Positions 1-15,234 of a DNA stretch of 38,224 nt are shown here, piece after piece. The position numbers were made by a program, and so were the translations under genes. The first letter of the stretch is position 1, and every line of letters starts with the position of its first letter. The notes below the pieces were generated by a model. That model ran no database searches and was not told where the DNA came from. It saw only the letters and a list, made by a program, of their open reading frames with translations. Origin of the DNA: Omnitrophica bacterium GWA2_41_15 (lineage in GTDB: Bacteria; Omnitrophota; Gorgyraeia; Ghiorseimicrobiales; Ghiorseimicrobiaceae); the NCBI GenBank assembly GCA_919902105.1, contig CAKKQO010000058.1, forward strand, positions 1 through 38,224, in the 5' to 3' direction.

Positions 1-92
1 TTGCCAAAGTGATTGCCTGGTACGATAATGAGTGGGGTTATTCCAACCGTGTGGTGGATTTAATTGAATATATCATTAAGCGTGGCATATAG
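1..92 (+). CDS. gap: Glyceraldehyde-3-phosphate dehydrogenase, C-terminal end (partial)
   Basis: Only the last 29 codons are in the window, read from position 3 to the TAG at 90-92. They contain WYDNEWGYSNRVVDL, the highly conserved C-terminal signature of type I GAPDH, the glycolytic enzyme that oxidises and phosphorylates glyceraldehyde 3-phosphate with NAD. The enzyme is cytosolic. The 5' part lies outside the window, so the catalytic Cys cannot be seen. The gene is unrelated to the downstream clusters and marks the edge of a housekeeping region. Confidence 0.95.
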   Translation, partial: AKVIAWYDNEWGYSNRVVDLIEYIIKRGI

Positions 93-100
93 TTACGGAA

Positions 101-180
101 ATTACCCAAAAGAGACACCTTTTGGTAGGCCGAATTACAACGCACGTGTACCAAAAACCAAATTTGGTTTGGTATTTCTT
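101..180. repeat. Nested inverted repeats, possible gap terminator
   Basis: Four copies of a TACCAAA/TTTGGTA-type word lie in alternating orientation. A perfect 7-bp stem (CCAAAAG at 106-112, CTTTTGG at 119-125) has a 6-nt loop. A second arm pair at 149-162 and 163-174 is complementary except for two extra A residues, and its centre ACCAAATTTGGT is a perfect palindrome. The second structure is followed by TTTCTT, so it may terminate gap transcription. The first has no T run. The word at 120-127 can also pair with 149-156, giving alternative folds. A degraded mobile repeat is another reading. Confidence 0.45.
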
Positions 181-282
181 GCCAAAAAGCAAATCTGTAC
201 TACCTACTAAAATAGCCCCTTTTCCAAATTATAAACTCTAACAAGCGCCACCCAATTTCTAATAAATTTTTCAACAAAATAC

Positions 283-309
283 TTGACAAAATCATTTTTA
301 TAGTATAAA
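283..309 (+). promoter_or_regulatory. Sigma70-like promoter for the MerR/ExeA/RiPP operon
   Basis: A consensus -35 TTGACA lies at 283-288, followed by a very AT-rich stretch. The best-matching -10 words are TATAAA at 304-309 (15-bp spacer) and TATAAT at 311-316 (22-bp spacer), so the exact -10 is uncertain. Non-standard spacing would suit a MerR-type activator, but that is inference. The same ACTTGACAA core sits ahead of the second MerR-like gene. Confidence 0.45.
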
Positions 310-361
310 TTATAATTTATAGAATATAATTTATAAAGTAAGGTTGTTATCGATTAAGGCT

Positions 362-610
362 ATGGATAAAAAAATAAAAATAAATAAAAACTTATTTAAA
401 ATTGGCGAAGTAATGGAATATTCCAGCCTATCGAGACAGGTTATCCATAACTATACCCAATTAGAATTAATTAATGAGGCCAAGCGCACGCCCTCAGGTC
501 ATCGGCTCTACGGGGAAGAGGTATTCGAACGGATTAAAAAGATAAAGGAGCTACGCTCTAAAGGTAAGACACTTTTGGAAATAAAAAAGATACTTAACAG
601 GCAAAAATAA
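362..610 (+). CDS. MerR-like helix-turn-helix regulator, copy 1
   Basis: An 82-residue DNA-binding protein with the MerR N-terminal winged-helix pattern. It shows LFKIGEVMEYSSLSRQVIHNYTQ, broken here as LFKIGEVMEYS and LSRQVIHNYTQ, then a GHRLYGEEVFERI wing and a C-terminal IKELRSKGKTLLEIKKIL helix. It has no effector-binding or dimerisation coiled-coil domain. I prefer ATG 362; an in-frame TTG at 344 directly abuts AAGTAAGG, too close to act as a ribosome site. The ExeA gene follows after one base, so the two are surely co-transcribed. A paralogue with the same partner lies at 9262. The likely role is control of the operon it heads. Confidence 0.8.
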   Translation: MDKKIKINKNLFKIGEVMEYSSLSRQVIHNYTQLELINEAKRTPSGHRLYGEEVFERIKKIKELRSKGKTLLEIKKILNRQK

Positions 611-611
611 G

Positions 612-1460
612 ATGTACGAAGAATATTGGAAATTAAAGGAGAAGCCCTTTGGGAACACGCCTGACCCACATTTTCTCTACTATTCTCAAAGACATGAAGA
701 GGCTTTATCGAGAATGCTTTATGCTATTAGAGAGCGAAAAGGTGCGGCTGTTTTAACCGGTGAATATGGGAGCGGAAAGACCCTTTTAAGTAGAGTCCTT
801 TTGGAGGAGCTTTCCAACGAACAATACCAGTCAGCTCTTATCTTTAATCCTAGACTGCCACCTTTAGAACTTATAAAGGAGATTATTTACCAATTAGGCA
901 AAGACGTATCATCTTTGACTAGTAAAACTGAGTTATTGCACTCTCTCAATGAAATCTTATATAAAAATAAGGACGACTACAGAAATACAGTAATAGTTGT
1001 AGATGAGGCTCAGGCCATCGGAGAGCAGGACAGTTTTGAGGAGTTAAGGCTTCTTTTAAATTTTCAGCTAAATGATAATTTTCTTCTTACTCTTATCCTT
1101 TTAGGACAACCGGAACTGAAGGAAAAAATAGATAGTCTACCTCAACTGAGACAAAGGCTGGCTGTCCGGTATCATTTAAAAGCGCTTACAGAAATAGAGA
1201 CAGAGGAATATATTAAACATCGTTTAAGAGTAGCTGGCGCAGAGCAGGAGATTTTTTTAGAAGAGGCCTTTAAGGAAATATATTATTTTTCAGCAGGCAT
1301 ACCTCGAAGAATAAACAATATATGCGATGTGGCCTTATTAGTAGGTTGTGGAGAAGAGCAGGATAGAATTGGTAAAAAGATAATAAAAAAAGTAGCTGAG
1401 GATATGGGAGAGATACCTATTGAAAATGATGAAAAAGCGGAGAAGATAACCAATGCTTAG
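612..1460 (+). CDS. ExeA/GspA-type AAA ATPase, copy 1
   Basis: A 282-residue P-loop ATPase of the ExeA family, which in type II secretion works with ExeB/GspB to remodel peptidoglycan. A related subfamily occurs in exopolysaccharide/PEP-CTERM loci. The family N-terminus is clear (YWKLKEKPFGNTPDPHFLYY). Walker A is GEYGSGKT at 50-57 and Walker B VIVVDEAQ at 127-134. LLGQPEL forms the sensor region and IPRRINNICD the C-terminal Arg motif. There is no peptidoglycan-binding domain after the AAA core, unlike full-length ExeA. It overlaps the HD-GYP gene by 8 bases, and that protein starts with a GspB-like segment, which fits an ExeA/ExeB-like pair. Full-length paralogues are at 9506 (frameshifted) and 35447. 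Confidence 0.88.
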   Translation: MYEEYWKLKEKPFGNTPDPHFLYYSQRHEEALSRMLYAIRERKGAAVLTGEYGSGKTLLSRVLLEELSNEQYQSALIFNPRLPPLELIKEIIYQLGKDVSSLTSKTELLHSLNEILYKNKDDYRNTVIVVDEAQAIGEQDSFEELRLLLNFQLNDNFLLTLILLGQPELKEKIDSLPQLRQRLAVRYHLKALTEIETEEYIKHRLRVAGAEQEIFLEEAFKEIYYFSAGIPRRINNICDVALLVGCGEEQDRIGKKIIKKVAEDMGEIPIENDEKAEKITNA

Positions 1461-2643
1461 AATGTCGGATATCTTAAAAAAGGCTAAGGAGAAGGAAAGA
1501 GAGGCTAAAGAAGAAAGGCAAAAGAAGCCTTTTATTGAGCCTGACCAGCAGGAGGCAGCTCCAGAGCCTGTAAAACCTGTGAAAGAAGTGGTGACGCCTG
1601 AAGTTAAAGCCGATGATGAGGTAGAAAAGCCTAAGATAGAGCAACAACCCGAAGTAAGAGAGCAAAAGGAAGAGGAAGCCAAACCTTCCGAAGTTAGGAT
1701 CTCTCCTGTAGTAATGAAAGGAACTAAAGTAGTTTCAAGCGAAGAGAGTTTGAAGTTGTACGAAGCATTAATGTCTTTAATGAAAGAGATACTAAAAGAG
1801 GACATAAATCACGAATCCATTGATGTTAAACAAATTACGGCATTAATAGAAAAAATAATTGAGCAGTTAAGCTTGAACAATGAAAAGTTGTTAGAGTTAG
1901 CTTTAATCAAAGATTCGAAAGATGTAAACTATATCTTTTGCCATTCAATAAATGTCTGTATCTATTCTATTGCGATAGGATTGGGTCTTGGTTATGAAAA
2001 ATCCAAGTTAACAGAATTGGGAATTTCAGCTCTCCTTCATGATGCAGGGATGTCATGTTATCTGCCTGTAGTTAATCGGTCAACAAAATTAACTACCAGA
2101 GAATATAATGAAATTAAAAACCATTCTATAAATGGTTCAGCGTTTTTGGAAAAGATTAAGAATTTAAACAGAATAGCTAGTTACGTTGCTCATCAACATC
2201 ATGAGCGCATAGATAGTTCGGGTTATCCCCGAGGCCTAAAGGGAGAATCTATAAATGAATACGCCAAAATAGTGGGCATTGTAGATGTATTTGAGGCGAT
2301 GTTGCATCAGCGCTTATACCGTAATGAATTTCTACCATTAGAAGCATTACGGGAAATTCTAGCTAATAAAAATTCCTTCCAATATAGATTAATAAAGATT
2401 TTAATAGAAAAGATTGGCATTTTTCCTATAGGAAGCCTTGTTGAGTTAAATACTAAAGAGATAGCCCAGGTGGTTAAACTTAATTACGCAGTTCCTCTGC
2501 GTCCTGTGGTTAAGATAATATCTGGAGTGGATGGTGAAGAGCCAAAAGAGACGAAAACACTCGATTTGACAACCCAGCCCACTATTTGTATTAAAAAGGG
2601 ATTAAGAAAAAGTGAATTGGGAAAACTTCACACTGTTAGATAA
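1453..2643 (+). CDS. GspB-like N-terminus fused to HD-GYP phosphodiesterase domain
   Basis: A 396-residue protein. Residues 1-25 (MSDILKKAKEKEREAKEE) resemble the start of GspB/ExeB-type proteins. Residues 26-90 are a Pro/Glu/Lys-rich linker. The rest is an HD-GYP domain, the family that hydrolyses cyclic-di-GMP. Visible metal and substrate residues are H164, H196-D197, H224, HH at 249-250, GYPRGLKG from 257, and D278. The usual HDIGK is HDAGM, so the Lys is lost. No membrane segment is evident. GGAG at 1439-1442 supports ATG 1453 over the in-frame ATG 1462. Its location between the ExeA ATPase and the RiPP genes suggests nucleotide-second-messenger control of the module. Catalytic activity is likely but unproven because of the missing Lys. 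Confidence 0.85.
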   Translation: MLRMSDILKKAKEKEREAKEERQKKPFIEPDQQEAAPEPVKPVKEVVTPEVKADDEVEKPKIEQQPEVREQKEEEAKPSEVRISPVVMKGTKVVSSEESLKLYEALMSLMKEILKEDINHESIDVKQITALIEKIIEQLSLNNEKLLELALIKDSKDVNYIFCHSINVCIYSIAIGLGLGYEKSKLTELGISALLHDAGMSCYLPVVNRSTKLTTREYNEIKNHSINGSAFLEKIKNLNRIASYVAHQHHERIDSSGYPRGLKGESINEYAKIVGIVDVFEAMLHQRLYRNEFLPLEALREILANKNSFQYRLIKILIEKIGIFPIGSLVELNTKEIAQVVKLNYAVPLRPVVKIISGVDGEEPKETKTLDLTTQPTICIKKGLRKSELGKLHTVR

Positions 2644-2651
2644 AAGAAAGA

Positions 2652-3068
2652 ATGAAAATAATAAAAAAGATTCTTTACTATAAAGATGTAGGGTTACTCT
2701 GGAAGATATTTATTACTTCCATAAAGATTTCTTTCATATCTTTCCTTAAAAAGCACCAATCGCCTTTATCTTTAAGATTCAAAAAAATCTCTTCCGTAGA
2801 AAATCCTGATATAGGTAAAATAACGAAATATGTCAATTTCTACACTTTTATTCGTCGCAAGCTCGGATTTAAAGAATGCTGCCTTACTTATTCTCTCCTG
2901 CTTTATCATATGCTAAAGCAGGCGGGGATAGAGGCCAAGATAAATTTTGGTGCTAAAAAAACAGATTTCAAATCCATAACCGGTCTAAATATGATTGGCC
3001 ATTGTTGGGTTACCATAGGAGATGAAAAGAAAGAAACCAACGAGCAATTGATATTCAACTATCCTTGA
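2652..3068 (+). CDS. Lasso-B2-like transglutaminase-fold leader peptidase
   Basis: A 138-residue protein resembling the lasso-peptide maturation protease B2 family (transglutaminase-like core). That family uses a Cys-His-Asp triad to cut leader peptides presented by the B1/RRE protein. The catalytic Cys region is ECCLTYSLLLYHMLKQAGI (C76 or C77). The His motif is MIGHCWVTIG with H117. The conserved spacing through INFGAKK to the His segment matches the family. The N-terminal 35 residues are hydrophobic and basic and may touch the membrane. It follows the HD-GYP gene by 8 bases and precedes the PqqD gene by 10. Order B2-PqqD-kinase is typical of lasso-like clusters, so it probably removes the leader of the 6146 precursor. 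A distant transglutaminase-like protein of other function is the alternative. Confidence 0.75.
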   Translation: MKIIKKILYYKDVGLLWKIFITSIKISFISFLKKHQSPLSLRFKKISSVENPDIGKITKYVNFYTFIRRKLGFKECCLTYSLLLYHMLKQAGIEAKINFGAKKTDFKSITGLNMIGHCWVTIGDEKKETNEQLIFNYP

Positions 3069-3078
3069 GAAAGAGGCT

Positions 3079-3366
3079 ATGGTGGTGTCACTAAATAATT
3101 GTATTGCAAAGAATAAAAAGATACCCTGGAGAATAGTAGAAGGAGAAGCTATTTTGGTTGATGTGGACAAGGGTGAGGTTATTCACCTGAACCCAGTAGG
3201 GGCGGAAATCTGGAATTCTATAGATGGCAAAAAATCAGTGAAAGAGATAATTGAGCATATATGCAATCAGTTTGAAGTGGATAAAGAAACCGCCAAAGAG
3301 GATACTTTCAAATTTTTAGAAAGACTTCATGAAAATGACGCCATAGAATGTCTCAAGATTCCTTAA
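3079..3366 (+). CDS. PqqD-family RiPP recognition element protein
   Basis: A 95-residue stand-alone PqqD-type protein. The family pattern is clear: a central WRIVEGEAILVDVDKGEVIHLNPVG stretch (shown here in part as EGEAILVD and HLNPVGAEIW), then GKKSVKEIIEHICNQF and a DTFKFLERLHENDAI helix. PqqD and lasso B1 proteins bind the leader of a precursor peptide and deliver it to modifying enzymes. It overlaps the kinase gene by 19 bases, implying translational coupling. With the B2-like peptidase just upstream it forms the B1/B2 pair of lasso systems, and it probably also serves the radical SAM enzymes. Confidence 0.9.
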   Translation: MVVSLNNCIAKNKKIPWRIVEGEAILVDVDKGEVIHLNPVGAEIWNSIDGKKSVKEIIEHICNQFEVDKETAKEDTFKFLERLHENDAIECLKIP

Positions 3367-4196
3367 TAATTAAAATTGCTGGTTTTTGTGTAGAAGTTAA
3401 AACGGGAAGCCGGAAATCTTTTGTATATTTAGGGCCGCGGTTTAAGGGTTTTTTCACTAAGAGTAAACCGGATTTTGTTGTTCGGGTTGGTGAAAACGAA
3501 CAATATATCAATCTAGGCGATGTTAGCACTATTGAAAAAAGGGGAAGGAAGATTTTTTGTGCTGCGAAGGTTAAATCCTGCCGGAAAGATAAGTCATTTG
3601 GTAAGCGGCAATTGAGTTGCAACCAGACCGAGATAGGGTTTATAGACCTTGAAAATAGGATAGCTGAGATAGACTTGTCAAAAAAGGATGAGGCTTTTAT
3701 AATTCCTAGCTTTTTAAGGGTAATATTAGGATCCTATCTGGCTTCCAATTATGGGATGTTAGTTCATGCCTGTGGGGTTGTTAAAGATGGGAAAGGATAC
3801 CTGTTTGTAGGAGCGCCGGATAGCGGTAAAAGTACTGTCGCAAAGGCCTCAAAGGGGCTAAGAGTTCTTTCCGATGATTGTATATGCCTAAGAAAAGTAA
3901 ATGGTAATTTTTATATCTTTGGTACGCCTTGGGCTCCCTACAGTAGTAATGGTTCAGGACTATTGAGGAGAATCTTTTTTTTGCGAAAAGGGAAAACATT
4001 GGAGTTTAGAAAAATGGCTGTGCCTAAACTAATGCAGGGATTATTTTGGCACGGACGGTTTACTCATTTAAACTTTAGTTTCACTAAAGGTATATTAAAT
4101 ACGATTAGTGAAATAGCAACCACTATCCCATCTTATGAAATGCATTTTTCGCTTAATGATAATATCTGGGAAGGGATTGAAAGATGGGAAATATAA
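3348..4196 (+). CDS. HprK-like ATP-dependent kinase of a RiPP cluster
   Basis: A 282-residue protein with an HPr-kinase-type P-loop: GAPDSGKST from residue 155, preceded by H140 and followed by LSDDCI with D176-D177 and FGTPWAP near 191. This is the fold of HPr kinase/PEP carboxykinase. HprK homologues in Bacillales lasso clusters (the paeninodin PadeK type) phosphorylate the precursor peptide. The N-terminal 120 residues are not the HPr-kinase N-domain but match the extension seen in PqqD-linked homologues. It overlaps the PqqD gene by 19 bases and the first radical SAM gene by 13. No HPr or PTS gene is nearby, which argues for a peptide substrate. The precursor here ends in Asn rather than Ser, so the target would have to be an internal Ser or Thr. 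Confidence 0.8.
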   Translation: MSQDSLIIKIAGFCVEVKTGSRKSFVYLGPRFKGFFTKSKPDFVVRVGENEQYINLGDVSTIEKRGRKIFCAAKVKSCRKDKSFGKRQLSCNQTEIGFIDLENRIAEIDLSKKDEAFIIPSFLRVILGSYLASNYGMLVHACGVVKDGKGYLFVGAPDSGKSTVAKASKGLRVLSDDCICLRKVNGNFYIFGTPWAPYSSNGSGLLRRIFFLRKGKTLEFRKMAVPKLMQGLFWHGRFTHLNFSFTKGILNTISEIATTIPSYEMHFSLNDNIWEGIERWEI

Positions 4197-4999
4197 TTCC
4201 CGCAAGTTTAGAGGCAAAGGTCAAGAAAAGAGCCATCCCGCTCTTTTGCAATTTTGCACTCACTTGGAGATGTAATCACAGGTGTATTCACTGCCATCCT
4301 TATTTACCGCGTTCAAAGGAGTTATCAACTCAGGAGATAAAGGATGCGCTTGGTCAACTTGATGCTTTAGGATGTTTTTTTCTTACTTTTACTGGAGGTG
4401 AGCCACTGCTTAGGCCTGATTTTTTGGAAATTGCGAAGGTTGCAAAGAAATTTTCGTTTGCTTTATTCCTTCATACAAATGGAAGCCTTGTAACCCATGA
4501 ATTAGCAAGGAAGATAAAGGAACTCGGTTTTGTGCAGGTCCAGGTAAATCTTCTTGGCGCATCGGCCAAGATACATGATCGGATAGCAGGAGTCCGAGGC
4601 TCTTTTAAGAAAGCAATAAATACAATTGAATATCTTAAAAGAGAAGGTGTAGCTGTGATATTGAAGACTGTGCTTATGAAGGTAAATTTCTCTGAATTCA
4701 AGAAAATTATAAAATTAGCAACTAATCTGGGAGTAAAATGGCTTATTACACCCGCCGTCTTTTCGGTTGTTGATAAAATGCCAGTTGGCTTAGGGTTGAA
4801 TGAGAAACAGATTAAAAAACTTCAATCACATATATCTCATCTTGAGCCTGGGAGTTTGGGCCCCCATATTAGATTTAAGGGGAAAACTTGGAGAAGTAGC
4901 GTAGATAATCAGCTTTTCCACCCAGCGCCCGTCGCTCTGTATAATTTAAAAGAATCTTTATACTTAAATATTTCTAATGGAAAACTGAAGGAGTATTAA
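4184..4999 (+). CDS. Radical SAM protein 1 with a degenerate SPASM region
   Basis: A 271-residue radical SAM enzyme. The [4Fe-4S]/SAM motif is C30-NHR-C34-IH-C37 within TWRCNHRCIHCHPY, followed by FTGGEPLLRPDF and HTNGSLVT. It is clearly a tandem duplicate of the next gene over about 200 residues. After that, copy 2 has a Cys-rich SPASM domain, while this protein has FHPAPVALYNLKESL aligned to YPCIGAPIVLGNLREK and then stops, with no cysteines. It therefore keeps the catalytic cluster but lacks auxiliary-cluster ligands. It could be a partner subunit, a second modification enzyme, or a decaying copy. GGGAAGGG at 4168-4174 supports ATG 4184. It is part of the RiPP operon. Confidence 0.88.
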   Translation: MGNIIPASLEAKVKKRAIPLFCNFALTWRCNHRCIHCHPYLPRSKELSTQEIKDALGQLDALGCFFLTFTGGEPLLRPDFLEIAKVAKKFSFALFLHTNGSLVTHELARKIKELGFVQVQVNLLGASAKIHDRIAGVRGSFKKAINTIEYLKREGVAVILKTVLMKVNFSEFKKIIKLATNLGVKWLITPAVFSVVDKMPVGLGLNEKQIKKLQSHISHLEPGSLGPHIRFKGKTWRSSVDNQLFHPAPVALYNLKESLYLNISNGKLKEY

Positions 5000-5002
5000 A
5001 AG

Positions 5003-6100
5003 ATGGGGTCTGAAATTCCAGAGCATTTAGAAGCCAAGATTTGGGAGAAGAATATCCCATTTTCTTCCGGTATAGAGCTTACTTGGAGATGTAATCACAA
5101 ATGCATTCACTGCTATCAATATCCGCCAAGCTCTCATGAGTTATCTACTCAGGAGATAAAAGATATTCTTACCCAACTTGCTGCTGCTGGATGTCTCTTC
5201 CTTCAGTTTACTGGCGGCGAACCACTCCTTAGGCCTGATTTTTGGAATATTGCAGATTTTACAAGGAAGCTATCGTTTGCTGTTATTTTATATACAAATG
5301 GGAGCCTTGTAACCAGGGAAGTTGCAAGCAGGATAAAGGAGCTTAGATTTGTCCAGGTTCATATAAGCCTGCTTGGGGCATTTGGGCAGACACACGATAA
5401 AATAGTAAGGGTAGAAGGATCCTATAAGAAAGTAATAAAGGCGATTGAATACTTGAGAAGTAAGGATGTAAATGTAATGTTGAACACAGTGCTGATGAAG
5501 GAAAATTTTTCCGAATTCAAAGAAATTATAAGATTGGCAGAGAGCTGGGGAGCGGAATATCGCATTTCGCCTGTAATCACTCCTGCTAATGAAGGTTCTA
5601 AAGCGCCACTTGATTTAAGGATAAGTGAGGCTCAACTTAAGGAGTTTTATTCATTTTTATTTAATATAAAAAAAGTCGATTTTGGGCCTTACGCAGAGGG
5701 TGATAAAGAGCCATTGTGTGGATATGGGAGGAAAGGAGGCGTAATTAGTGCCTCAGGTGACCTTTATCCATGTATAGGGGCACCTATTGTTCTCGGCAAT
5801 TTAAGGGAAAAATCATTTAGAGAAATTTGGGAGACTTCTGTGGTTTTGAAGAAGATAAGGGCGGCCCATTTAGAGAATCTAAAAGTATGCAATACCTGTT
5901 CCTTATCTTTCAGTTGCATCCGCTGTAGCGGCTTGGCACTATTCGAGGATGGCGACCTGTTTGGTCCGTCTCATGAGTGCTGCAGAATAACAAAGATTAT
6001 AAATGAGGTGATTGCCAATTCTCAGTTACCATCTAAGGTTAAAAAGGTATTTAAAAGAGAGACTGTAGATAGCTTGGAGAGTAAAATTAGAGCTCTTTAG
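5003..6100 (+). CDS. Radical SAM/SPASM peptide-modifying enzyme 2
   Basis: A 365-residue radical SAM enzyme with C30-NHK-C34-IH-C37, FTGGEPLLRPDF and YTNGSLVTRE. The C-terminal SPASM domain has Cys at 239, 257, 296, 299, 305, 308, 326 and 327. These sit in the usual pattern: CGYGRKGG, SGDLYPC, then a CxxC-x5-CxxC block and a final Cys. Such enzymes bind auxiliary iron-sulfur clusters and install thioether or carbon-carbon crosslinks in precursor peptides; others mature dehydrogenases. A PqqD protein upstream and a Cys-rich precursor 46 bases downstream favour the peptide role. The Shine-Dalgarno AAGGAG at 4988-4993 fits ATG 5003. The product is cytosolic. Confidence 0.93.
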   Translation: MGSEIPEHLEAKIWEKNIPFSSGIELTWRCNHKCIHCYQYPPSSHELSTQEIKDILTQLAAAGCLFLQFTGGEPLLRPDFWNIADFTRKLSFAVILYTNGSLVTREVASRIKELRFVQVHISLLGAFGQTHDKIVRVEGSYKKVIKAIEYLRSKDVNVMLNTVLMKENFSEFKEIIRLAESWGAEYRISPVITPANEGSKAPLDLRISEAQLKEFYSFLFNIKKVDFGPYAEGDKEPLCGYGRKGGVISASGDLYPCIGAPIVLGNLREKSFREIWETSVVLKKIRAAHLENLKVCNTCSLSFSCIRCSGLALFEDGDLFGPSHECCRITKIINEVIANSQLPSKVKKVFKRETVDSLESKIRAL

Positions 6101-6132
6101 GACTGCATTTCTTGAACTGTCTGATTAATTTC

Positions 6133-6140
6133 AAGGAGGT
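6133..6140 (+). promoter_or_regulatory. Consensus Shine-Dalgarno of the precursor peptide gene
   Basis: AAGGAGGT is a perfect anti-16S match, five bases before ATG 6146. It is the strongest ribosome site of the whole RiPP operon. This fits a precursor that must be made in excess over its enzymes. Confidence 0.8.
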
Positions 6141-6145
6141 AAGCA

Positions 6146-6307
6146 ATGAAGAGAAAGACACGTAGGCCTTATGAAGAACCCAGGATGCGGGTGAAGAAAT
6201 TTGGCACCTTCTTTTTTTACTGTGCTTGTAGTGGAGGTCATGGAGCAACAGCTTGTTCGGGAACAGGAGGTCTTACTAATAAGGCCATTGGCACCTGTTT
6301 CAACTGA
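6146..6307 (+). CDS. Candidate RiPP precursor peptide, 53 aa, Cys/Gly-rich core
   Basis: A small ORF between the second radical SAM gene and the nucleotidyltransferase gene. The basic N-terminus MKRKTRRPYEEPRMRVKKFG looks like a leader. Y9-E-E-P12-x-M14 matches the YxxPxL recognition motif of lasso leaders that bind B1/RRE proteins, with a Gly-x-Phe (20-22) a little further on, as in lasso leaders. After FFFY the core is rich in Cys, Gly, Ser and Thr: C26-A-C28-SGGHGATA-C37-SGTGG, then C51-F-N at the end. This composition suits thioether or other radical SAM crosslinks, and Ser/Thr residues could accept phosphate or a nucleotide. No other ORF of this kind is in the operon. The cut site is not obvious; it may lie around 20-25. 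The peptide call is inference from context, leader motif and ribosome site. Confidence 0.8.
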   Translation: MKRKTRRPYEEPRMRVKKFGTFFFYCACSGGHGATACSGTGGLTNKAIGTCFN

Positions 6308-6328
6308 ACTTGCGAGAGAAATCTTTAG

Positions 6329-7537
6329 GTGAATCAATTGAGTTGGACAGAAGAAAAGAGATTGTTAGCGGGATGTTCGGTAATAAATAGGGATAGGCCT
6401 ATCTGCCATATAGTTCGACAAACCATTGGTAGTAATTTGAACTGGGATTATATATTAGAAAATGCTTTAGAAAATGGCACATCTTCCCTATTATATAGAA
6501 ACTTGAAGGAAATCAATGATGATGGTCTTGTTCCCAGATTGGTAATCAAAAAATTAAAGGATATTTATTTTGATATTACCGCAGAGAATATCTTTTTACT
6601 TGAAGAGCTTGGCAAAGTCTTGAAGAAGTTTAATGAAGAAAGAATCTCTGTGATTATACTAAAAGGAGCTGCACTCCTAGAAAATATATACCAAGATATC
6701 GGCTTAAGGAGGATGCGCGACATAGATATTCTCGTAAAAAAAAAGCAACTGCACAAAATCGATAGAACCTTGAAACAATTGGGCTATTTTTCTGCTTATA
6801 ACTGGGCAGATTATATGGAGATATCTCCCAGCCAATATCTCAATTCTATATGTTATATAAAAAGACAAGGCAAAATGTTCGTCATCCTGCATCTTCACTG
6901 GCATATAATAAATACTACTGTTCCGGTTTATTCGTATGGTCCTATAAATATAGAGAGATTTTGGAAAGAAGCAGGGCAAACCACTATAGCTGGGGTTAAA
7001 ACATTAGTAATGGCCCCACATCACTTGCTTATTCATCTCTCGGAACATATCTTAAAGCATTCCTATAGTCATTTTATCCTTTTCTGTGATATTTTTGAAG
7101 TAATTAGGTATTGTAATAAAAATGGGCTTAATTGGGAGTTACTCGTTCAGGATACAGTTGAATTTAATCTAAATAAACCGGTATATTATGGTTTATATTT
7201 TACCTCTAAGTTTTTAGGAGCTGAAATACCGGAGAGGGTTTTAACAAGACTTAAACCTTCTTATCTTAATTATGGAGAAAGGAAAATTCAAACCCTGATT
7301 GAAGAGAATAGAGGTCTTCCAGATTTAAATTGTTTTTCTTATTTCGTTATGAATGAGAAAGTTACAGAGAAGTTCAAGTTTGTCTTACGAAGTATCTTCC
7401 CATCCCGAGAGATTCTCGCCTTGCAGTATATTGTAGCGCCCAAAGATATAAGATTTCACCATTATATTCTTAAAGTGAAAAGTGCCTTTATGCAGGGATT
7501 AAGAGTCTTAATTTATTTATTGAGGCGGCCTACTTAA
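6329..7537 (+). CDS. Family-5 nucleotidyltransferase (RiPP tailoring candidate)
   Basis: A 402-residue protein of the uncharacterised nucleotidyltransferase_5 type. The signature is ISVIILKGAALLENIYQDIG (K112-G113) followed by LRRMRDIDILV, with D131 and D133 as likely metal ligands of a polymerase-beta-like fold. Members recur in lasso and other PqqD-linked clusters beside HprK-like kinases and are thought to add nucleotidyl or phosphoryl groups to the peptide; this is not well established. The start is GTG 6329, with GAGAG about ten bases upstream, 21 bases after the precursor stop. Its stop overlaps the stop of the convergent ABC permease gene by 4 bases. It is the last gene of the operon. 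Confidence 0.8.
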   Translation: MNQLSWTEEKRLLAGCSVINRDRPICHIVRQTIGSNLNWDYILENALENGTSSLLYRNLKEINDDGLVPRLVIKKLKDIYFDITAENIFLLEELGKVLKKFNEERISVIILKGAALLENIYQDIGLRRMRDIDILVKKKQLHKIDRTLKQLGYFSAYNWADYMEISPSQYLNSICYIKRQGKMFVILHLHWHIINTTVPVYSYGPINIERFWKEAGQTTIAGVKTLVMAPHHLLIHLSEHILKHSYSHFILFCDIFEVIRYCNKNGLNWELLVQDTVEFNLNKPVYYGLYFTSKFLGAEIPERVLTRLKPSYLNYGERKIQTLIEENRGLPDLNCFSYFVMNEKVTEKFKFVLRSIFPSREILALQYIVAPKDIRFHHYILKVKSAFMQGLRVLIYLLRRPT

Positions 7538-8340
7538 TATTGCACCAGACTTCCCTGCTGGCGTGCTTTTTTAAGGGCAAATTTAAACGAGGCAAGACTT
7601 AAAGGAAGCAGTAATAAAGAAAATAGGAGGAGAAATCCTATTTCTTTTGTAAGTTGACTTATAGTGTAACCTTTATAAACTGCCAATTCCACTGCCCGAA
7701 TAGCATAGGTGATAGGAAAAAATTTCGCCAGAAATTGTAGCCAAGCGGGCATAATAGTAATGGGAAAATAGACCCCGCAGATTAGTCCTTCCAGACTATT
7801 TATAATCCAGCCCAGAGGATTTCCCTGTTTAAATACCATAATAAAACTTGCCGAGAGTATGCCTAAACTACTGAAAGAAATAATTGTTAAAAATAGTATT
7901 ACCAAAGTGGATAATATATTTACATTAGCGAAGCTGATTTTAAATAAAAATATACCTAAGGCAATATAGATAGCCATATCTACAGTAGCAAATAAAAGAT
8001 TCCATAATCCTAAAGAGAAGAGTATGGTGGATATCTTGACGGGTGTTAAAAATAGAGCTTCTAAGGTTCCCTGCATCTGTTCAAAGCGAATTCGGCTGGA
8101 AAAGGACCCTAATCCCACCCCAATATAACTGAAGAAGGCCATACTCAGAAGGACGTAAGAGAAATAATTTACGCCGAATTGTTGGAGGTGTCCGACTATC
8201 CTTTGACCGAATAATTTATCAATGAAGAAATAGGTCAATACAGTTCCAAGAACACCGAAAAGCCTGAATATAAAAGACAATTTATAACTGGATTCAATCA
8301 GAAAATCCTTTTTTATGAAAGCAAAGGGTTTTTTAAGCAT
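7534..8340 (-). CDS. ABC-2 type transporter permease
   Basis: A 268-residue integral membrane protein with about six hydrophobic segments. The family pattern is present: a cytoplasmic IRFEQMQGTLEALFLTPV segment, GNPLGWIINSLEGLICGVYFPI near the middle, and FLAKFFPITYAIRAVELAVYKG near the end. ABC-2 permeases export drugs, peptides or polysaccharides. It follows its ATPase by 4 bases on the minus strand. It converges on the RiPP operon and has no polysaccharide genes on its own strand, so export of the mature peptide (or self-immunity) is the attractive role. A general drug or lipid exporter is the alternative. Confidence 0.88.
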   Translation of the reverse strand: MLKKPFAFIKKDFLIESSYKLSFIFRLFGVLGTVLTYFFIDKLFGQRIVGHLQQFGVNYFSYVLLSMAFFSYIGVGLGSFSSRIRFEQMQGTLEALFLTPVKISTILFSLGLWNLLFATVDMAIYIALGIFLFKISFANVNILSTLVILFLTIISFSSLGILSASFIMVFKQGNPLGWIINSLEGLICGVYFPITIMPAWLQFLAKFFPITYAIRAVELAVYKGYTISQLTKEIGFLLLFSLLLLPLSLASFKFALKKARQQGSLVQY

Positions 8341-8344
8341 ATTT

Positions 8345-9130
8345 TTAACTCTTTTCAGTTAATTTTACAAAAATCTCACCCAAGCTGGCAACAGGATTGT
8401 TTATTTTCCTTCGCAGTTCTTCCATTGTTCCCAGGGCATAAAGCCTTCCTTTATGCAATATCATAAATAGGTCGCAAAGATCTAAGGCCTCATCCATATG
8501 GTGGGTGGTGAATATAACTGTCTTTTCTTTTTTTCTCACCAAATCCTCTTTTATAAAGTTTCTTAAATCCAAAGCAGTTGCATAATCCAGACTTTTGGTT
8601 GGTTCGTCTAAAAGGAGAAGTTCCGGGTCATTAAGAAGACCCCTAATTAGTGCAAACTTTTGTTTCATTCCTGCAGAATAGGTATCAAAGCGGCTATCCT
8701 GGTAATCTATGGCAAAAAGTTTAAACAATTCTTCAATTTTGTCTTTTGGATTTTTCAGACCGTACATAGATGCAAAAAATTCAAGATTTTGCCTTCCAGC
8801 AAGGCGCCAATAGAAGCTTCTCTCCTGGGAAGAGACCATACCAATAAAGGATTTAATCTTATCGTCATTAATACCGAGACGGTAACCATTTACAACTACG
8901 CTACCTTTATCGGGGAGTATTAAAGTAGCGATTATCTTTAAAAGGGTGGTTTTACCTGCGCCATTGGGTCCGAGAACACCAAGTATCTGACCTTTCTTAA
9001 GAGAAAATGAGACATCTTCAAGCGCCCTGGTTGGCTTTCTATGCTTGAAATCGAGTTTAATCAATTTGCTGAAGGAAAGAGGAGGGGTAAAATCCTTGGT
9101 TAATTTTTCTACTTCTAATATATGTTTCAT
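8345..9130 (-). CDS. ABC transporter ATP-binding protein
   Basis: A 261-residue ATPase with Walker A GPNGAGKT (54-61), signature YSAGM (151-155, in place of LSGGQ) and Walker B LLLLDEPTKSLD (171-182). IFTTHHMDEAL supplies the switch His. The style (DrrA/NodI-like, with an ABC-2 permease partner) marks it as an exporter. The first 35 residues before RALEDVSFSL carry an insert (PPLSFSKLIKLDFKHRKPT) common in this subfamily. It is the first gene of the minus-strand pair and is driven from the compact divergent promoter region at 9153-9203. Confidence 0.93.
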   Translation of the reverse strand: MKHILEVEKLTKDFTPPLSFSKLIKLDFKHRKPTRALEDVSFSLKKGQILGVLGPNGAGKTTLLKIIATLILPDKGSVVVNGYRLGINDDKIKSFIGMVSSQERSFYWRLAGRQNLEFFASMYGLKNPKDKIEELFKLFAIDYQDSRFDTYSAGMKQKFALIRGLLNDPELLLLDEPTKSLDYATALDLRNFIKEDLVRKKEKTVIFTTHHMDEALDLCDLFMILHKGRLYALGTMEELRRKINNPVASLGEIFVKLTEKS

Positions 9131-9152
9131 TTGGTTGCCATTCGTTTATAAT

Positions 9153-9181
9153 AATATACCATAATAAAAAGAACTTGACAA
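9153..9181 (-). promoter_or_regulatory. Promoter of the ABC exporter genes, overlapping the divergent one
   Basis: Read on the minus strand, TTGTCA (9181-9176) is a 5/6 match to the -35 consensus. After exactly 17 bases comes TATATT (9158-9153), a 5/6 -10 match. The predicted start near 9146 leaves a short leader before ATG at 9130. Its -35 shares bases with the plus-strand TTGACA because the site CTTGACAAG is palindromic. Confidence 0.5.
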
Positions 9182-9203
9182 GCCATTTATTATATGATAT
9201 TCT
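9175..9203 (+). promoter_or_regulatory. Promoter of the second MerR/ExeA module
   Basis: A perfect -35 TTGACA at 9175-9180 is followed after 17 bases by TATTCT at 9198-9203 (4/6 match); TATGAT at 9193-9198 is the alternative with a short spacer. Transcription would start near 9210, giving about 50 bases of leader to ATG 9262. The TTG inside the -35 box is unlikely to be a start codon. Confidence 0.5.
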
Positions 9204-9261
9204 TACAGAAGATAGTTTACTTAAAGTAAATACTGTAAATAGTACATTGCAGGATATTAAT

Positions 9262-9489
9262 ATGTCAAAAAACCTGATCTCTATAAAGGAAATTGTGCGA
9301 AAATATAACATTCCTTATTCCACAGTTAACCATTATACAATAATTGGGTTATTAACTGTTGCAGATAGAAAGAAGAACATAAGGCTGTACGATGAGGCAG
9401 AGCTAAAAGTTAGGTTAAGAAGGATAGCGGAATTAAGGGGCAAAGGTTATCCGTTACATTTGATTCAGAAGGAGTTAGATACGGTTTAA
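9262..9489 (+). CDS. MerR-like helix-turn-helix regulator, copy 2
   Basis: A 75-residue DNA-binding protein with ISIKEIVRKYNIPYSTVNHYT as the helix-turn-helix, an IRLYDEAEL wing and RRIAELRGKGYPLHLIQKEL at the end. It is a paralogue of the 362-610 product and likewise lacks an effector domain. The open frame extends up to 9175, but that part covers the promoter. ATG 9262 has AGGA (9251-9254) seven bases upstream, so I take the short form. An ExeA-type gene follows after 16 bases, repeating the arrangement of copy 1. It probably controls the polysaccharide operon, the divergent exporter, or both. Confidence 0.75.
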   Translation: MSKNLISIKEIVRKYNIPYSTVNHYTIIGLLTVADRKKNIRLYDEAELKVRLRRIAELRGKGYPLHLIQKELDTV

Positions 9490-9505
9490 AAGGGCTAGGG
9501 AAAAT

Positions 9506-10319
9506 ATGTATGATGAATATTGGGGATTTAAAGAGAAGCCGTTTCAGAATACGCCTGATCCTCGTTTTTTCTATAAATCTTTGGAGCATGAAGAGGCTTT
9601 AATGAAGATGCTTTATATAATTGAAGAGGGGCTAGGGGGGTATGCTTACTGGCGTATTTGGCTGTGGAAAAACGGTTATCGGCCAAGCCCTTTTAGAGAA
9701 ACTCCCCAGTGATAAGTATAAGATAGCATTTATTACCAACCCTCAACTTGAATATGTAGAGCTTCTTAGAGCTGTTGTGCGTAACTTAAAGAGCGTGGAG
9801 TTGCCTATTAAAAAGAGCGAACTTTCTGCAGACTATTTGTTAGAGATTTTGGGCAATATATTGGAAAACAATGCTAGAGATGGCACAGAAACAGTAATCA
9901 TTATTGATGAGGCCCATATCATAAAGGATGAGTATATATTTGAAGAATTACGGCTTTTATTGAATTTCCAGAGAAGAGATAAGTTTTTATTAACCTTGCT
10001 TTTGTTTGGCCAACCAGAATTAAAACAGAGAATCGAGGATAATAAACAATTAGAACAAAGAATTGCTATAAAAAGTCATTTAGAAGCCTTTAACCAGCAA
10101 GATACGCGCAATTATATAATCCATCGGCTTCGCGTAGCCGGCGGAGCGGATTCTATCTTTGAGGAAAGTACTTTTAAGATAATTCATAATCGTTCTGGCG
10201 GCATCCCCAGAAGAATAAACCGGATTTGCGACCTGAGCCTTTTAGTAGGTTTGAACAAAGACGTAAAGCGCATCGGTCAGCAAACAGTGGAAGAAGGCCT
10301 ACAGATTCTGGGTGGCTAA
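9506..10319 (+). pseudogene. ExeA-type AAA ATPase, copy 2, frameshifted in a G6 run
   Basis: The N-terminal part (MYDEYWGFKEKPFQNTPDPR through IIEEGLGG) runs in one frame and stops at 9712. The rest (MLTGVFGCGKT, Walker B TVIIIDEAH, LLFGQPEL, IPRRINRICD) is in another frame from 9642. The switch falls at GGGGGG, 9635-9640. Either one surplus G or two missing G restores the frame; two missing bases give the same spacing as paralogues 1 and 3 (EGKGAAMLTG). Everything else is intact, so this may be an assembly or sequencing error, a recent inactivation, or slippage-controlled expression. The role would be as in the other ExeA-type copies, here at the head of the polysaccharide export genes. Confidence 0.82.
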
Positions 10320-10329
10320 GCCGTTTTTA

Positions 10330-10358
10330 TTGGAATTATAATGAAAAACAAGTATAAT
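10330..10358 (+). promoter_or_regulatory. Possible internal promoter for the export genes
   Basis: TTGGAA (10330-10335, 4/6) and a perfect TATAAT (10353-10358) are separated by 17 bases. The predicted start, about 10365, lies at the AGAGGA ribosome site of the next gene, giving a very short leader. The match is good but the geometry is tight. Confidence 0.4.
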
Positions 10359-10378
10359 ATACCAAAGAGGAAAAATAA

Positions 10379-11719
10379 ATGAGGGATTCCCAAAAATATA
10401 TTATTAAGCTCATCATTTTTATATCTCTAATAAGTGTATTATGGTTTCCTGCTGAGACAGAGGCAGGAAGTATTTTTGATTTCTTCCGCAAAAGGAAAGA
10501 GCCGGCAGCTACTGAAAAGGCAGGAAAGGAGTTAGCTATCCCCCTCCACAAACTCCTACCAGAAGAAAAATTAGAAGTCTCCCAAATTGAATCTCTTTAT
10601 CAACAAGCTAAAGAAGATTTTATTCAAGGAGATTATCCTGCCGCTATAGTAAAGTTTGCTGAAGTAATTAAATTAGAAAAAGACCTTTACCCTATCTACA
10701 CAACTTATGCCCAAGAATATATCCAGCAGGCCCAGGAGATAATTAAAGAACAGGAGGATAAACAAATACAGGCGCATAGGGAAACTGAAGAAGGACGAAA
10801 AAGAAAACAAAAAGAGCTTGCCGACAGGGCAGAAGAAGAAAGATTAAGGAAAGAAACTGAAAAAAAAGAAAAATTAGCTCAAATAGAGCCTGCTTATAAA
10901 GAAGCAGAAGAAACTTTTTTAGAAGCAAAAGCTAAATTTGAAAAGGTTGCAGAGTTAGAGAAAGGCTTAGGGGTTACTTCTACAACCCGAGCTAAGGAAT
11001 TTGAAGATTATTTGGCTCAGAAAGAAGAGCGGTTGGCAGAATCAGGAACAGAGAAAAAAGGTGTTGAAGAAAAGGAAGTTTTAATTCAAGAGGAAGAGGC
11101 TTTAGCTCATAACGGGGATGTTATTAGAGAAGAGCCACAGCTTTTAGAATATACTATTAGCGATGAGGATACATTATATATCTCTGTCTGGCAAGAGGAA
11201 AACTTAAGCCAGGAGGTCATTGTTCGTCCGGATGGCAAGATATCTTTTCCTTTGGCCGGAGATGTTCCTGCTGCAGGTTTAACCTTTACTCAACTAAAAG
11301 AGGAACTCACCAAAAGACTTAAGGATTATGTTAAATACCCTATGGTTTCCATCTCTCTTAAGAAACTAGGTGGTAGAAAAGTTATTGTTTTAGGCGAAGT
11401 AGGTACTGCCGGCGTCTATTCTGTTACGGGAAAATGCACCGTATTGGAGGCAATTGGCAGGGCCGGCGGCTTTACAGCGCATGCTGTTCCTTCCAGTGTA
11501 ATACTTATCAGAGGAGGATTAGAAAGTCCTGAAGGCAAAAGGCTCAATTTAAGCCGGACCATTAACAAAACTGATATGAGTCAAAATGTCGCTTTGCAGC
11601 CGGAAGACGTCGTTTATGTTCCCAAAAAATTTATTGCTAATGTGAATTACGCTGTAACTCAAATTCTTGGTCCTGTATCTCAAGGTGCTTATACAGCTAA
11701 AACATTTAGCGACTGGTAA
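10379..11719 (+). CDS. Polysaccharide export protein (Wza-type) with N-terminal coiled-coil/TPR extension
   Basis: A 446-residue protein. Residues 1-28 look like a signal peptide (hydrophobic IIKLIIFISLISVLWF, then AETEAG); there is no lipobox Cys, unlike Wza. Residues 70-115 resemble a TPR repeat (LYQQAKEDFIQGDYPAAIVKFAEVI). Residues 120-240 are a highly charged Glu/Lys helix, probably a coiled coil. The poly-export domain begins near 255 (YTISDEDTLYISVW, then VRPDGKISFPLAGDVPAAG). SLBB-like sequence follows (VIVLGEVGTAGVYSV, LEAIGRAGGFT). Wza-type proteins form the outer-membrane channel for capsule or exopolysaccharide. It is adjacent to the Wzc-like kinase, the usual partner. The N-terminal extension is unusual. 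Confidence 0.88.
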   Translation: MRDSQKYIIKLIIFISLISVLWFPAETEAGSIFDFFRKRKEPAATEKAGKELAIPLHKLLPEEKLEVSQIESLYQQAKEDFIQGDYPAAIVKFAEVIKLEKDLYPIYTTYAQEYIQQAQEIIKEQEDKQIQAHRETEEGRKRKQKELADRAEEERLRKETEKKEKLAQIEPAYKEAEETFLEAKAKFEKVAELEKGLGVTSTTRAKEFEDYLAQKEERLAESGTEKKGVEEKEVLIQEEEALAHNGDVIREEPQLLEYTISDEDTLYISVWQEENLSQEVIVRPDGKISFPLAGDVPAAGLTFTQLKEELTKRLKDYVKYPMVSISLKKLGGRKVIVLGEVGTAGVYSVTGKCTVLEAIGRAGGFTAHAVPSSVILIRGGLESPEGKRLNLSRTINKTDMSQNVALQPEDVVYVPKKFIANVNYAVTQILGPVSQGAYTAKTFSDW

Positions 11720-11738
11720 GATTATAAAGGAGGCGGTT

Positions 11739-13688
11739 TTGCCACAATACGAATTGAATTTAAGGGATTATTTAAGAATTTTCCGCAAGAGAAAATTTAT
11801 CATAGTTATAACTTTTCTTGTTGTAACCATAACTAGTTTTTTCTATCTTTCTCTACAGCAGCCGATATATGAAGCTTCCACTACAGTTAAAATACTGGAA
11901 CGGCAAAGCATAGCCGGGCTCCTTACAGAATGGATTGTTTATAGCCCAGCGGATATAATGGAATCGCAGGCTAAAATAATAACAGGATTCCCAATTATGC
12001 AAAAGGTAGCTCTGCACCTGGGTTTGATAGATGATACTATCCCGACCTCAAAAATCCACAGTATAGTGGGAGGTTTACAAGGCAGTGTGACTACTGAGAC
12101 AGTTAAACAGACAAATATTATTAGAATTACTGCTACTACAGGCAATGCTAAAGAGTCCATGGATTTAGCCAATACTGTAGCCCAGGTTTATGTAGAAGAA
12201 AATTTATTGGAGAAAAGAAAGCAAGCCAGCACTGCCCGCCAATTTATTGAAGAACAATTGTCTCAGCTAGAAGGAAGATTGAAAGAAGGAGAAGAACATC
12301 TGAGGAAATTCAGCGATGAAGTAAAAGGCATAAGACTAGCTGAACCCATTCAGAAAAAATTGGTGGATTTAGAATTTCAATTGGTTGCCTTTTTACAGAG
12401 ATACACCGATAAACACCCCCAAGTAATCCAGCTTAAAGAACAGATTAAAGATTTAGAAGCACAACTGGCAGGCTTTTCTGGCCAGGAGCTGGAATATGCA
12501 AGACTTGCCCGAGAGGTTGAGGTCAACAAGAAGCTTTATGATATGCTAAAGGAGAAACTTGAAGAGGCGCGTATTACTGAAGCCCAGAAGGTAAGCGATG
12601 TCTCTATAGTTGACCCGGCAGTTATGCCCCGTTCCCCTGTAGGTCCACAGAAAAAGACAGGCATTCTTATAGGTGGAATAATGGGGCTAATATTAGGTAT
12701 TGGCCTTGCTTTTATGTTTGAAACTTTAGATACTTCTATCGGGACCATAGAGGATGTTGAAAATTTACTGAAGTTACCCGTATTAGGAGTTATTCCTTCG
12801 GTTCCAGGCGGATTTAAAGCAGAAAAGAATATTTTTGAAAAATTTAAGAGGAAATTTTTACCTTCCATACCGACCGACGCCGAAGAGTCTTATATACGTT
12901 TGGTCGTTCATCATAAGTCTAACTCTCCTATAGCAGAGGCGTATCGCAATCTTCGCACCAACCTTAAACTTGGTCCATCTCAAAAGACTTTTCTTATCAC
13001 TAGCGCGGGACCCCGCGAAGGCAAGACCACGATTTTGGCAAATTTGGGTTTAACTATAGCTCAAAAAGGGGTAAAGACGCTTTTGGTTTCTTCTGACCTC
13101 AGACGCCCAGCATTGGCTAAGACTTTTGGTATAAAGCGAGAGCCGGGTTTAAATGAAATTATAGCAGGGACGGTAAATTTAGAAGATGCCCTGAGGAATA
13201 TTTCAGATATTATGCTGGGAGATATACAACTCGATGAAATAATAAAAACCCCGGGTATAGAAAATATATGGATTCTTCCGGCAGGACATCTACCTTTTAA
13301 TCCTGCAGAAGTTTTAGGATCCAAAGATATGTCAAAATTGATTGAGGAGCTTAAAAAGAGATTTGATGTTATTCTTTTTGATTCCCCTCCTGTCTTGCCT
13401 GTAACCGATGCCAGTCTTTTAGCTCCTAAGATGGATAGCACTGTTATATGTTATGAAATTGGCAGAACCGCAAGAGCCGCCCTTTTGCGAGCTAAAATTC
13501 AATTGGAGTCAACAGGCGCTAAAATCTCAGGAGTGGTTCTAAACCACATTGCGCCCCAAACCGAGACAATGGCAGCCTATCCGTATTACTACAGATACAA
13601 ATACGGATATTATGGGAAGGAAGAGTCAGACAAAAAGCATAAAAGGCTAAAACAGAGGGAAGAGTCATTTACAGAGGCCGAAGCATAA
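11739..13688 (+). CDS. Wzz/Wzc-type polysaccharide chain-length protein with BY-kinase domain
   Basis: A 649-residue fusion. It has an N-terminal Wzz domain with one membrane segment (about 20-42), a periplasmic coiled-coil/GNVR region ending in VDPAVMPRSPVGP, and a second membrane segment (about 306-328). A cytosolic tyrosine kinase follows: Walker A SAGPREGKTT from 422, Walker A' LLVSSDLRRP, and Walker B VILFDSPP at 544-551. The C-terminal tyrosine cluster YPYYYRYKYGYYG (614-626) is the autophosphorylation tail. It sets polymer length and couples to the Wza-like channel. I chose TTG 11739: AAAGGAGG (11726-11733) sits five bases upstream, whereas the longer frame from 11667 runs inside the preceding gene. 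Confidence 0.92.
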   Translation: MPQYELNLRDYLRIFRKRKFIIVITFLVVTITSFFYLSLQQPIYEASTTVKILERQSIAGLLTEWIVYSPADIMESQAKIITGFPIMQKVALHLGLIDDTIPTSKIHSIVGGLQGSVTTETVKQTNIIRITATTGNAKESMDLANTVAQVYVEENLLEKRKQASTARQFIEEQLSQLEGRLKEGEEHLRKFSDEVKGIRLAEPIQKKLVDLEFQLVAFLQRYTDKHPQVIQLKEQIKDLEAQLAGFSGQELEYARLAREVEVNKKLYDMLKEKLEEARITEAQKVSDVSIVDPAVMPRSPVGPQKKTGILIGGIMGLILGIGLAFMFETLDTSIGTIEDVENLLKLPVLGVIPSVPGGFKAEKNIFEKFKRKFLPSIPTDAEESYIRLVVHHKSNSPIAEAYRNLRTNLKLGPSQKTFLITSAGPREGKTTILANLGLTIAQKGVKTLLVSSDLRRPALAKTFGIKREPGLNEIIAGTVNLEDALRNISDIMLGDIQLDEIIKTPGIENIWILPAGHLPFNPAEVLGSKDMSKLIEELKKRFDVILFDSPPVLPVTDASLLAPKMDSTVICYEIGRTARAALLRAKIQLESTGAKISGVVLNHIAPQTETMAAYPYYYRYKYGYYGKEESDKKHKRLKQREESFTEAEA

Positions 13689-13717
13689 GATTTCAAAAAC
13701 AGCTGCTTTAAAAATGG

Positions 13718-13749
13718 TGGGCTAAAGGAGACAATAGCCCATTTATTAT
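13718..13749 (+). terminator. Hairpin with T-rich tail after the Wzc-like gene
   Basis: TGGGCTA (13718-13724) pairs perfectly with TAGCCCA (13735-13741) across a 10-nt loop and is followed by TTTATTAT. The stem is short and the tail broken, so it may only attenuate transcription into the ligase gene. Confidence 0.4.
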
Positions 13750-13767
13750 ATTAGAGGAATTCCAAAA

Positions 13768-13863: not shown

Positions 13864-13876
13864 GGAAAAGATATGT

Positions 13877-15232: not shown

Positions 15233-15234
15233 TT

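Follow-up and report, generated by a model that had tools for sequence, protein, structure and literature searches.

A predicted peptide cassette joining a radical SAM/SPASM enzyme to a leader-recognition and phosphopeptide-tailoring toolkit in Omnitrophota

Gene content of the locus

Contig CAKKQO010000058.1 of Omnitrophica bacterium GWA2_41_15 (assembly GCA_919902105.1; 38,224 nucleotides, hereafter the window), from a genome that is about 90% complete, carries a nearly gapless run of plus-strand genes (2652–7537) that we interpret as a cassette for a ribosomally synthesized and post-translationally modified peptide (RiPP). The cassette combines lasso-type leader recognition and phosphopeptide tailoring with radical S-adenosylmethionine (SAM) enzymes. 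It very probably encodes a small Cys-rich peptide along with the enzymes for its maturation and export, and it is a branch of a family that occurs across the phylum, is apparently undescribed and brings together two known types of peptide biosynthesis.

The run opens with a B2-like transglutaminase-fold cysteine protease, the predicted leader peptidase (2652–3068), which lies 10 nt from a PqqD-type discrete RiPP recognition element (RRE), the putative leader-binding adaptor (3079–3366; PF05402, 73.6 bits). The latter overlaps by 19 nt the gene of an HprK-like peptide kinase (3348–4196), which in turn overlaps by 13 nt that of a first radical SAM protein (4184–4999; PF04055, 101.7 bits). Only 3 nt separate this gene from that of a radical SAM/SPASM protein, the predicted cross-linking maturase (radical SAM 2; 5003–6100; PF04055, 98.8 bits; PF13186, 44 bits). 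Another 45 nt on begins a 53-residue open reading frame (ORF; 6146–6307), the putative precursor, with a strong Shine-Dalgarno sequence (AAGGAGG, 6133–6139) 6 nt 5' of its ATG, and 21 nt beyond it stands the gene of an NTP_transf_5 protein (6329–7537; PF14907, 163.8 bits against a cut-off of 31.2). Gene inventory, strand and spacing, with overlaps or gaps below 50 bases, agree throughout with a preliminary description made from the sequence of the window.

That description had ended the cassette at 7537. Its genes do belong together, but the unit reaches further upstream and includes a convergent pair that had been overlooked: an ABC-2 type permease, the predicted exporter (7534–8340, minus strand; PF01061, 60.8 bits), and its ABC transporter ATPase partner (8345–9130, minus strand; PF00005, 99.3 bits). 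The same pair adjoins the cassette in related loci L043, L044, L047, L048, L051, L134 and L138–L141. Beyond it in the window lie exopolysaccharide export and synthesis genes.

Recurrence among relatives

The preliminary description had proposed looking for the same gene order in related genomes, and dozens of genomes of the class indeed share the set, more than chance would give. A profile of the kinase found matches in 97 of the 384 class genomes sampled and in other classes of the phylum. So that neighbour counts would avoid circularity, 40 loci were collected by kinase alone; within 5 kb of these kinases lay genes for radical SAM proteins (36 loci), PqqD proteins (31), S24/S26-type peptidases of the signal peptidase (SpI) type (26), NTP_transf_5 proteins (23) and ABC ATPases (23). 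Fusion ORFs that join radical SAM to HprK domains (three cases) or SpI to NTP_transf_5 domains (21 cases) further tie these enzymes into one pathway. A scan of named genomes with radical SAM 2 returned 34 loci, nearly all of them other radical SAM families without a kinase.

Precursor peptide and leader recognition

In relatives, the radical SAM gene is adjoined by a short ORF whose product has a basic N-terminus, then a [YW]xxPx[hydrophobic] motif, and is rich in Cys towards its C-terminus. The preliminary description had made its proposal depend on the conservation of the short ORF next to these enzymes, and the shared leader and Cys-rich core show that ORF to be conserved. Among 46 precursors accepted, 39 have at least three Cys and 42 have their first Cys 14–18 residues after the motif Pro. 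Both the length and the residues of the core are highly variable from genome to genome. The motif, as defined in PMC13381572 ([Y/W]xxPx[hydrophobic]), reads YEEPRM in the window (6170–6187). A tighter pattern, YxKPxMxxxKLxxFFxxC, unites the window with L132 and L134 among the loci with a B2-like protease (B2-type loci) and is looser in L139. By the lasso register (Tyr at −17), the predicted cut falls one residue before the first Cys in L139 and directly before it in the other three B2-type precursors, which would divide the window precursor into leader and core as MKRKTRRPYEEPRMRVKKFGTFFFY / CACSGGHGATACSGTGGLTNKAIGTCFN. A search with this precursor alone as query returned nothing significant except itself, as expected for only 53 residues; relatives were reached through the enzymes.

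Some related loci carry several precursors. In L049 (7381–8335, minus strand) and L045 (9242–10955), tandem arrays of three to four precursors, most of them free of Cys, keep the YxxP leader and stand beside radical SAM and PqqD genes, those of L049 with a near-identical core (IKRIQAASVAEGEFVEGIGH). The machinery probably makes another type of product from them. Radical SAM–HprK fusions of about 650 residues occur in L059 (8.6–11 kb), L187 (5.6–11 kb) and L190 (2.9–9 kb), where two or three tandem WxxP precursors adjoin them.

The PqqD protein has lasso TbiB1 as its best PDB match, followed by 9x90 (PbaB1) and 9x8z (LppB). The crystal structure of LppB has the YxxP leader held by Asn33 and Asp70 (PMC13381572). 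Alignment through PbaB1 (G42/Q79) places Asn38 and Asp75 of the window RRE at these two positions, and the window leader has Tyr; TbiB1 match, Asn38/Asp75 and YEEPRM together make up the lasso-type combination of a B1-type RRE with a YxxP leader. Across 43 RREs, Asp occupies the LppB Asp70 position in 30 of 31 cases with a Tyr leader versus 5 of 11 with a Trp leader (Fisher p = 5e-4, uncorrected for relatedness). The co-variation independently supports the PqqD protein as the reader of this family of ORFs.

Radical SAM proteins

The preliminary description had linked the two radical SAM proteins with SPASM-type peptide cross-linking; a SPASM domain is present in only one of them, and a pair of SPASM cross-linkers is not supported. 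Radical SAM 2 has an intact CX3CX2C core (Cys 30, 34 and 37), a SPASM domain and eight post-core Cys (239, 257, 296, 299, 305, 308, 326 and 327), the combination of core and auxiliary-cluster Cys that marks radical SAM RiPP enzymes. The first protein (radical SAM 1) lacks this combination: it keeps the CX3CX2C core and a GGE motif, has no Cys after position 64 and retains only a Cys-less SPASM remnant. Phylogenetic analysis identifies it as a lineage-specific tandem duplicate closest to radical SAM 2 (support 96/96), on a longer branch (1.01 vs 0.42), within a group that unites the radical SAM proteins of B2-type loci (92/92). L132 (genome G283) also has a truncated first copy, and the other B2-type loci have one radical SAM/SPASM gene. 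The working set would thus be one radical SAM/SPASM protein, and the truncated copies may be accessory or decaying.

The best curated scores of radical SAM 2 are to mycofactocin and AhbD maturases, under cut-off, and its best match among solved structures is SkfB (6efn). Since the cores are rich in Cys, Gly and Ser and poor in aromatic residues, we favour thioether chemistry over cyclophanes. A defence-system role was considered and set aside, as PADLOC matched nothing but the radical SAM core, and this only to viperin-type models.

Kinase and NTP transferase

Alignment, motif comparison with BsfK and fold all point to an HprK-like peptide kinase. HPrK/P and PEPCK structures share the fold of its AlphaFold model (Foldseek probability 1.00; E = 6e-5 for 1kkl). 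The protein has the P-loop GAPDSGKS (155–162) and keeps His140, Lys161 and Ser162 of the P-loop, and Asp176-Asp177, residues important in BsfK. The residues of LPP-type kinases (see below) are present as H140, G155, G160, K161, S162, D176 and D177, with the second P-loop Gly replaced by Asp158.

In paeninodin an HprK-like kinase phosphorylates the C-terminal Ser, and in BsfA and LppA the target is core Ser3. The phosphate of pseudomycoidin is further decorated with hexoses by PsmN, a nucleotidyltransferase-like protein (PMC9266682, PMC10368454, PMC13381572). Precursors of non-B2 relatives end in Ser in 34 of 42 cases and in Thr in three, against 7–11% Ser in control ORFs. The Ser excess is confined to the last position, and in the kinase-selected set 20 of 23 precursors end in Ser. 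C-terminal Ser is absent from all four B2-type precursors, the window included (0/4 vs 34/42; Fisher p = 0.003), so any kinase target there should be internal. Our candidate in the window is Ser29, core position 4 by the lasso register and thus near the core start. The predicted substrate of the NTP_transf_5 protein is the peptide in its phosphorylated form.

Leader peptidase

The B2-like protein scores 33.4 bits with NF033537 (lasso_biosyn_B2; cut-off 33) and 27.3 with PF13471 (cut-off 26), and its Cys77 and His117 are invariant in the alignment of five B2-type cassettes. The assignment as leader peptidase is likely, yet the weakest of the set. The protease had been named among the features that set the cassette apart; it is present, but marks a minority branch, with the B2-type cassette in 5 of the 384 genomes (besides two weak orphan matches). 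Most relatives use an archaeal-type signal peptidase of the LppS kind (TIGR02228, 67.4 bits, cut-off 51.85), for which no match was found in positions 1–16000 of the window. Among 75 kinase loci, half of them chosen by radical SAM and one B2 locus (L131) ending at a contig edge, B2 occurs in five and signal peptidase in 51, never both (Fisher p = 0.0025). From these sequence comparisons we take B2 to stand in place of the archaeal-type signal peptidase of most relatives. In sister systems, both B2 and SpI cleave leaders with help from an RRE (PMC9266682, PMC10368454, PMC13381572).

The two orphan B2-like proteins, with GHAWLTLDDKPYL, lie within glycosyltransferase genes (L197:1456–1923 in G075; L198:1420–1902, minus strand, in G210). 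No PqqD or radical SAM gene occurs in the stretches seen, and both were excluded from the B2 branch.

Comparison with known systems and alternative explanations

By layout the cassette is closest either to the linear polyphosphorylated peptides (LPPs; Popov et al. 2026, PMC13381572) with a radical SAM enzyme added or to SynChlorMet (NCBIfam TIGR04248–TIGR04251) with the LPP/paeninodin toolkit added. It shares with LPP clusters a discrete RRE with conserved Asn and Asp, a YxxP leader, an HprK-like kinase, an NTP transferase, a leader peptidase, an exporter and a capsular polysaccharide setting, and most relatives have the archaeal-type signal peptidase as well. Such likeness would fit a linear peptide that is (poly)phosphorylated but carries no cross-links, with the radical SAM genes serving some other task. 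We judge this improbable given the radical SAM genes near 36 of 40 kinases, the three radical SAM–kinase fusions and the Cys-rich precursors. The window also departs from LPPs in its radical SAM/SPASM enzyme, in a B2-like protease instead of SpI and in an ABC-2 pair instead of an MsbA-like pump, while its relatives have a C-terminal Ser where LPPs use core Ser3. Only YxxPx[hydrophobic] remains of the LPP consensus YxxPxVLxHQxIxFETxxS in the precursors. The LPP paper describes its family as restricted to Bacillota and has no mention of radical SAM (PMC13381572).

Phosphorylated lasso peptides (paeninodin, pseudomycoidin, Bsf) have in common with the cassette a B1-type RRE, a probable B2-like protease, an HprK-like kinase and an NTP transferase and, in relatives, the C-terminal Ser of paeninodin. 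They differ in lacking a radical SAM/SPASM enzyme and in having an asparagine-synthetase-like cyclase; no lasso macrolactam cyclase was found in 344–9130. An Asn-synthase-like gene 20 kb off (27055–28947) encodes an amidotransferase of the XrtA type, with 621 bits for TIGR03108 and 230 against 525 for the model of the lasso cyclase, and AsnB-like matches near relatives proved to be SIS/GATase proteins. The preliminary description had held that radical SAM chemistry replaced lasso cyclization. The absence of a cyclase stands, but replacement is only one reading: because LPP clusters run the same toolkit without a cyclase (PMC13381572), recruitment of one toolkit by different chemistries fits equally well.

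SynChlorMet unites a kinase-like ScmC, a PqqD-like ScmD and two radical SAM proteins (ScmE, ScmF), the same protein kinds as here, and the curated models that best match the kinase and RRE include ScmC and ScmD. A diverged member of that system is nevertheless about as doubtful as an uncross-linked LPP. All four models stay far under their cut-offs (ScmC 32/125, ScmD 45.6/100, ScmE 98.9/400 and ScmF 105.6/400 bits), which already disfavours membership and agrees with the earlier view of a SynChlorMet-like yet distinct layout; the radical SAM pair arose by lineage-specific duplication with loss of one SPASM, rather than as two old paralogues; and the protease, NTP transferase and ABC-2 pair are extra. 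Sactipeptide and ranthipeptide maturases (SkfB, AlbA, PapB) likewise pair a radical SAM/SPASM enzyme with a Cys-rich precursor, but the window adds a stand-alone PqqD RRE, a kinase and an NTP transferase, and its cross-link chemistry is a prediction. With the SynChlorMet cut-offs failed, no lasso cyclase and only YxxP left of the LPP consensus, we file the cassette under none of these three systems. We regard it as a variant among phosphopeptide systems with RRE, HprK and NTP transferase, in which radical SAM chemistry is joined to a sister of the LPP/paeninodin toolkit. Radical SAM enzymes in such clusters are undescribed in the literature searched, outside of which lay bioRxiv preprints and most subscription papers, and the term SynChlorMet is absent from it. 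To that extent the earlier label of an undescribed operon stands; the individual pieces are known.

Two further explanations concern the fate of the peptide or of the locus. That the ORF encodes a cofactor or electron-carrier precursor, which as for PQQ or mycofactocin would be taken apart once radical SAM had acted on it, draws on the maturase scores of radical SAM 2 and on the YxxP motif that PQQ precursors share (PMC13381572). We consider this the least probable of the alternatives, as the core varies unlike that of a cofactor precursor and those pathways offer no role for a kinase, an NTP transferase or an exporter. It is a little more conceivable, though still unlikely, that the window copy is decaying and that only intact relatives make the peptide. 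Radical SAM 1 is fast-evolving and without SPASM, an ATPase gene is frameshifted near 9642, and close relatives lack the cassette; all other enzymes, however, are full length with key residues, Asn38/Asp75 still match the YxxP leader, and B2-type loci without a truncated copy carry one radical SAM/SPASM gene.

The explanation that we prefer, at a probability of roughly 0.7 for the whole, is a RiPP unit inside an exopolysaccharide locus that makes a leader-bound, cross-linked, phosphorylated, trimmed and exported Cys-rich peptide. Several points weigh against it. The function of the cassette is a prediction from its genes, and the choice of thioethers is guessed from what the core is composed of. 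The B2-like protein barely exceeds its model cut-offs, its third (acidic) triad residue is not conserved among the five members, and a PDB search with its AlphaFold model (pLDDT 76) gave no significant match (best E = 0.21). The window precursor ends in Asn, not in the Ser on which the kinase assignment draws in other loci. The locus may have eroded to some extent, given the decayed look of radical SAM 1 and the frameshifted ATPase copy nearby. Since the closest relatives (same genus and family) have no cassette, statements on the B2 branch draw on five genomes, four of them with a readable precursor, and statistics across relatives do not fully correct for shared ancestry.

Proposed pathway

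What the sequences themselves establish is the gene set with its order and recurrence, the leader motif, and the preserved catalytic or binding motifs of kinase, RRE and radical SAM 2. From gene content and the cited precedents we infer the following steps and their order. The PqqD-type RRE would grip the precursor by its YEEPRM leader and present it to the partner enzymes. Radical SAM 2 would then cross-link the Cys/Gly-rich core, most likely through thioethers from Cys to neighbouring carbons, and the HprK-like kinase would (poly)phosphorylate Ser/Thr, at the C-terminal Ser in most relatives and internally, for example at Ser29, in the B2 branch. The NTP_transf_5 protein may put a sugar or nucleotidyl group on the peptide phosphate, after which the B2-like protease would remove the leader by a cut immediately ahead of the first Cys of the core, and export of the product would fall to the ABC-2 pair.

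More tentatively, the phylum may make cross-linked phosphopeptides in which the SPASM enzyme rings the core and the kinase marks a residue, usually the C-terminal Ser, for a sugar added by NTP_transf_5, the peptide being coupled to, or regulating, the local exopolysaccharide; the branch of the window would have swapped signal peptidase for B2 and lost the C-terminal Ser. If the pathway is correct, one toolkit of RRE, HprK-like kinase, NTP transferase and B2 or SpI serves lasso, linear and radical SAM cores. It also offers testable substrate rules, namely a C-terminal Ser for the kinase and a leader Tyr/Trp read by one RRE residue. Small defined cassettes may make NTP_transf_5, inactive in the LPP expression system, tractable, and the unexplained SynChlorMet layout would become easier to interpret.

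Neighbouring genes and related loci

Upstream, the plus-strand run begins with a MerR-type HTH regulator (344–610; PF13411, 48.2 bits), 1 nt from an XrtA/ExeA-like AAA ATPase (612–1460; TIGR03015, 246 bits against a cut-off of 324.5) that also lies upstream of the cassette in L131 (G170). An HD-type (HD_5) gene (1453–2643; PF13487, 82 bits) overlaps the ATPase gene and stops 8 nt 5' of the B2 gene, an upstream position kept in L131 and L132. The MerR-type gene is the first of this run into the cassette, with which it would share a transcript. The window holds three paralogues of the ATPase: besides the copy above, one split by the frameshift already mentioned (9506–10319) and one at 35447–36265. 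MerR–ATPase pairs flank the cassette on both sides (344–1460 and 9175–10319).

Among relatives, large related ORFs (650–2370 residues) recur upstream of the kinase in L043, L138, L140–L143 and L146, and that of L143 matches peptidase family C25 (PF01364, 214 bits). GNAT acetyltransferases occur in some cassettes or fused to their signal peptidase (L154:6196–7086, minus strand; L044:1746–2330; L046:3783–4400), which suggests a further acylation step there.

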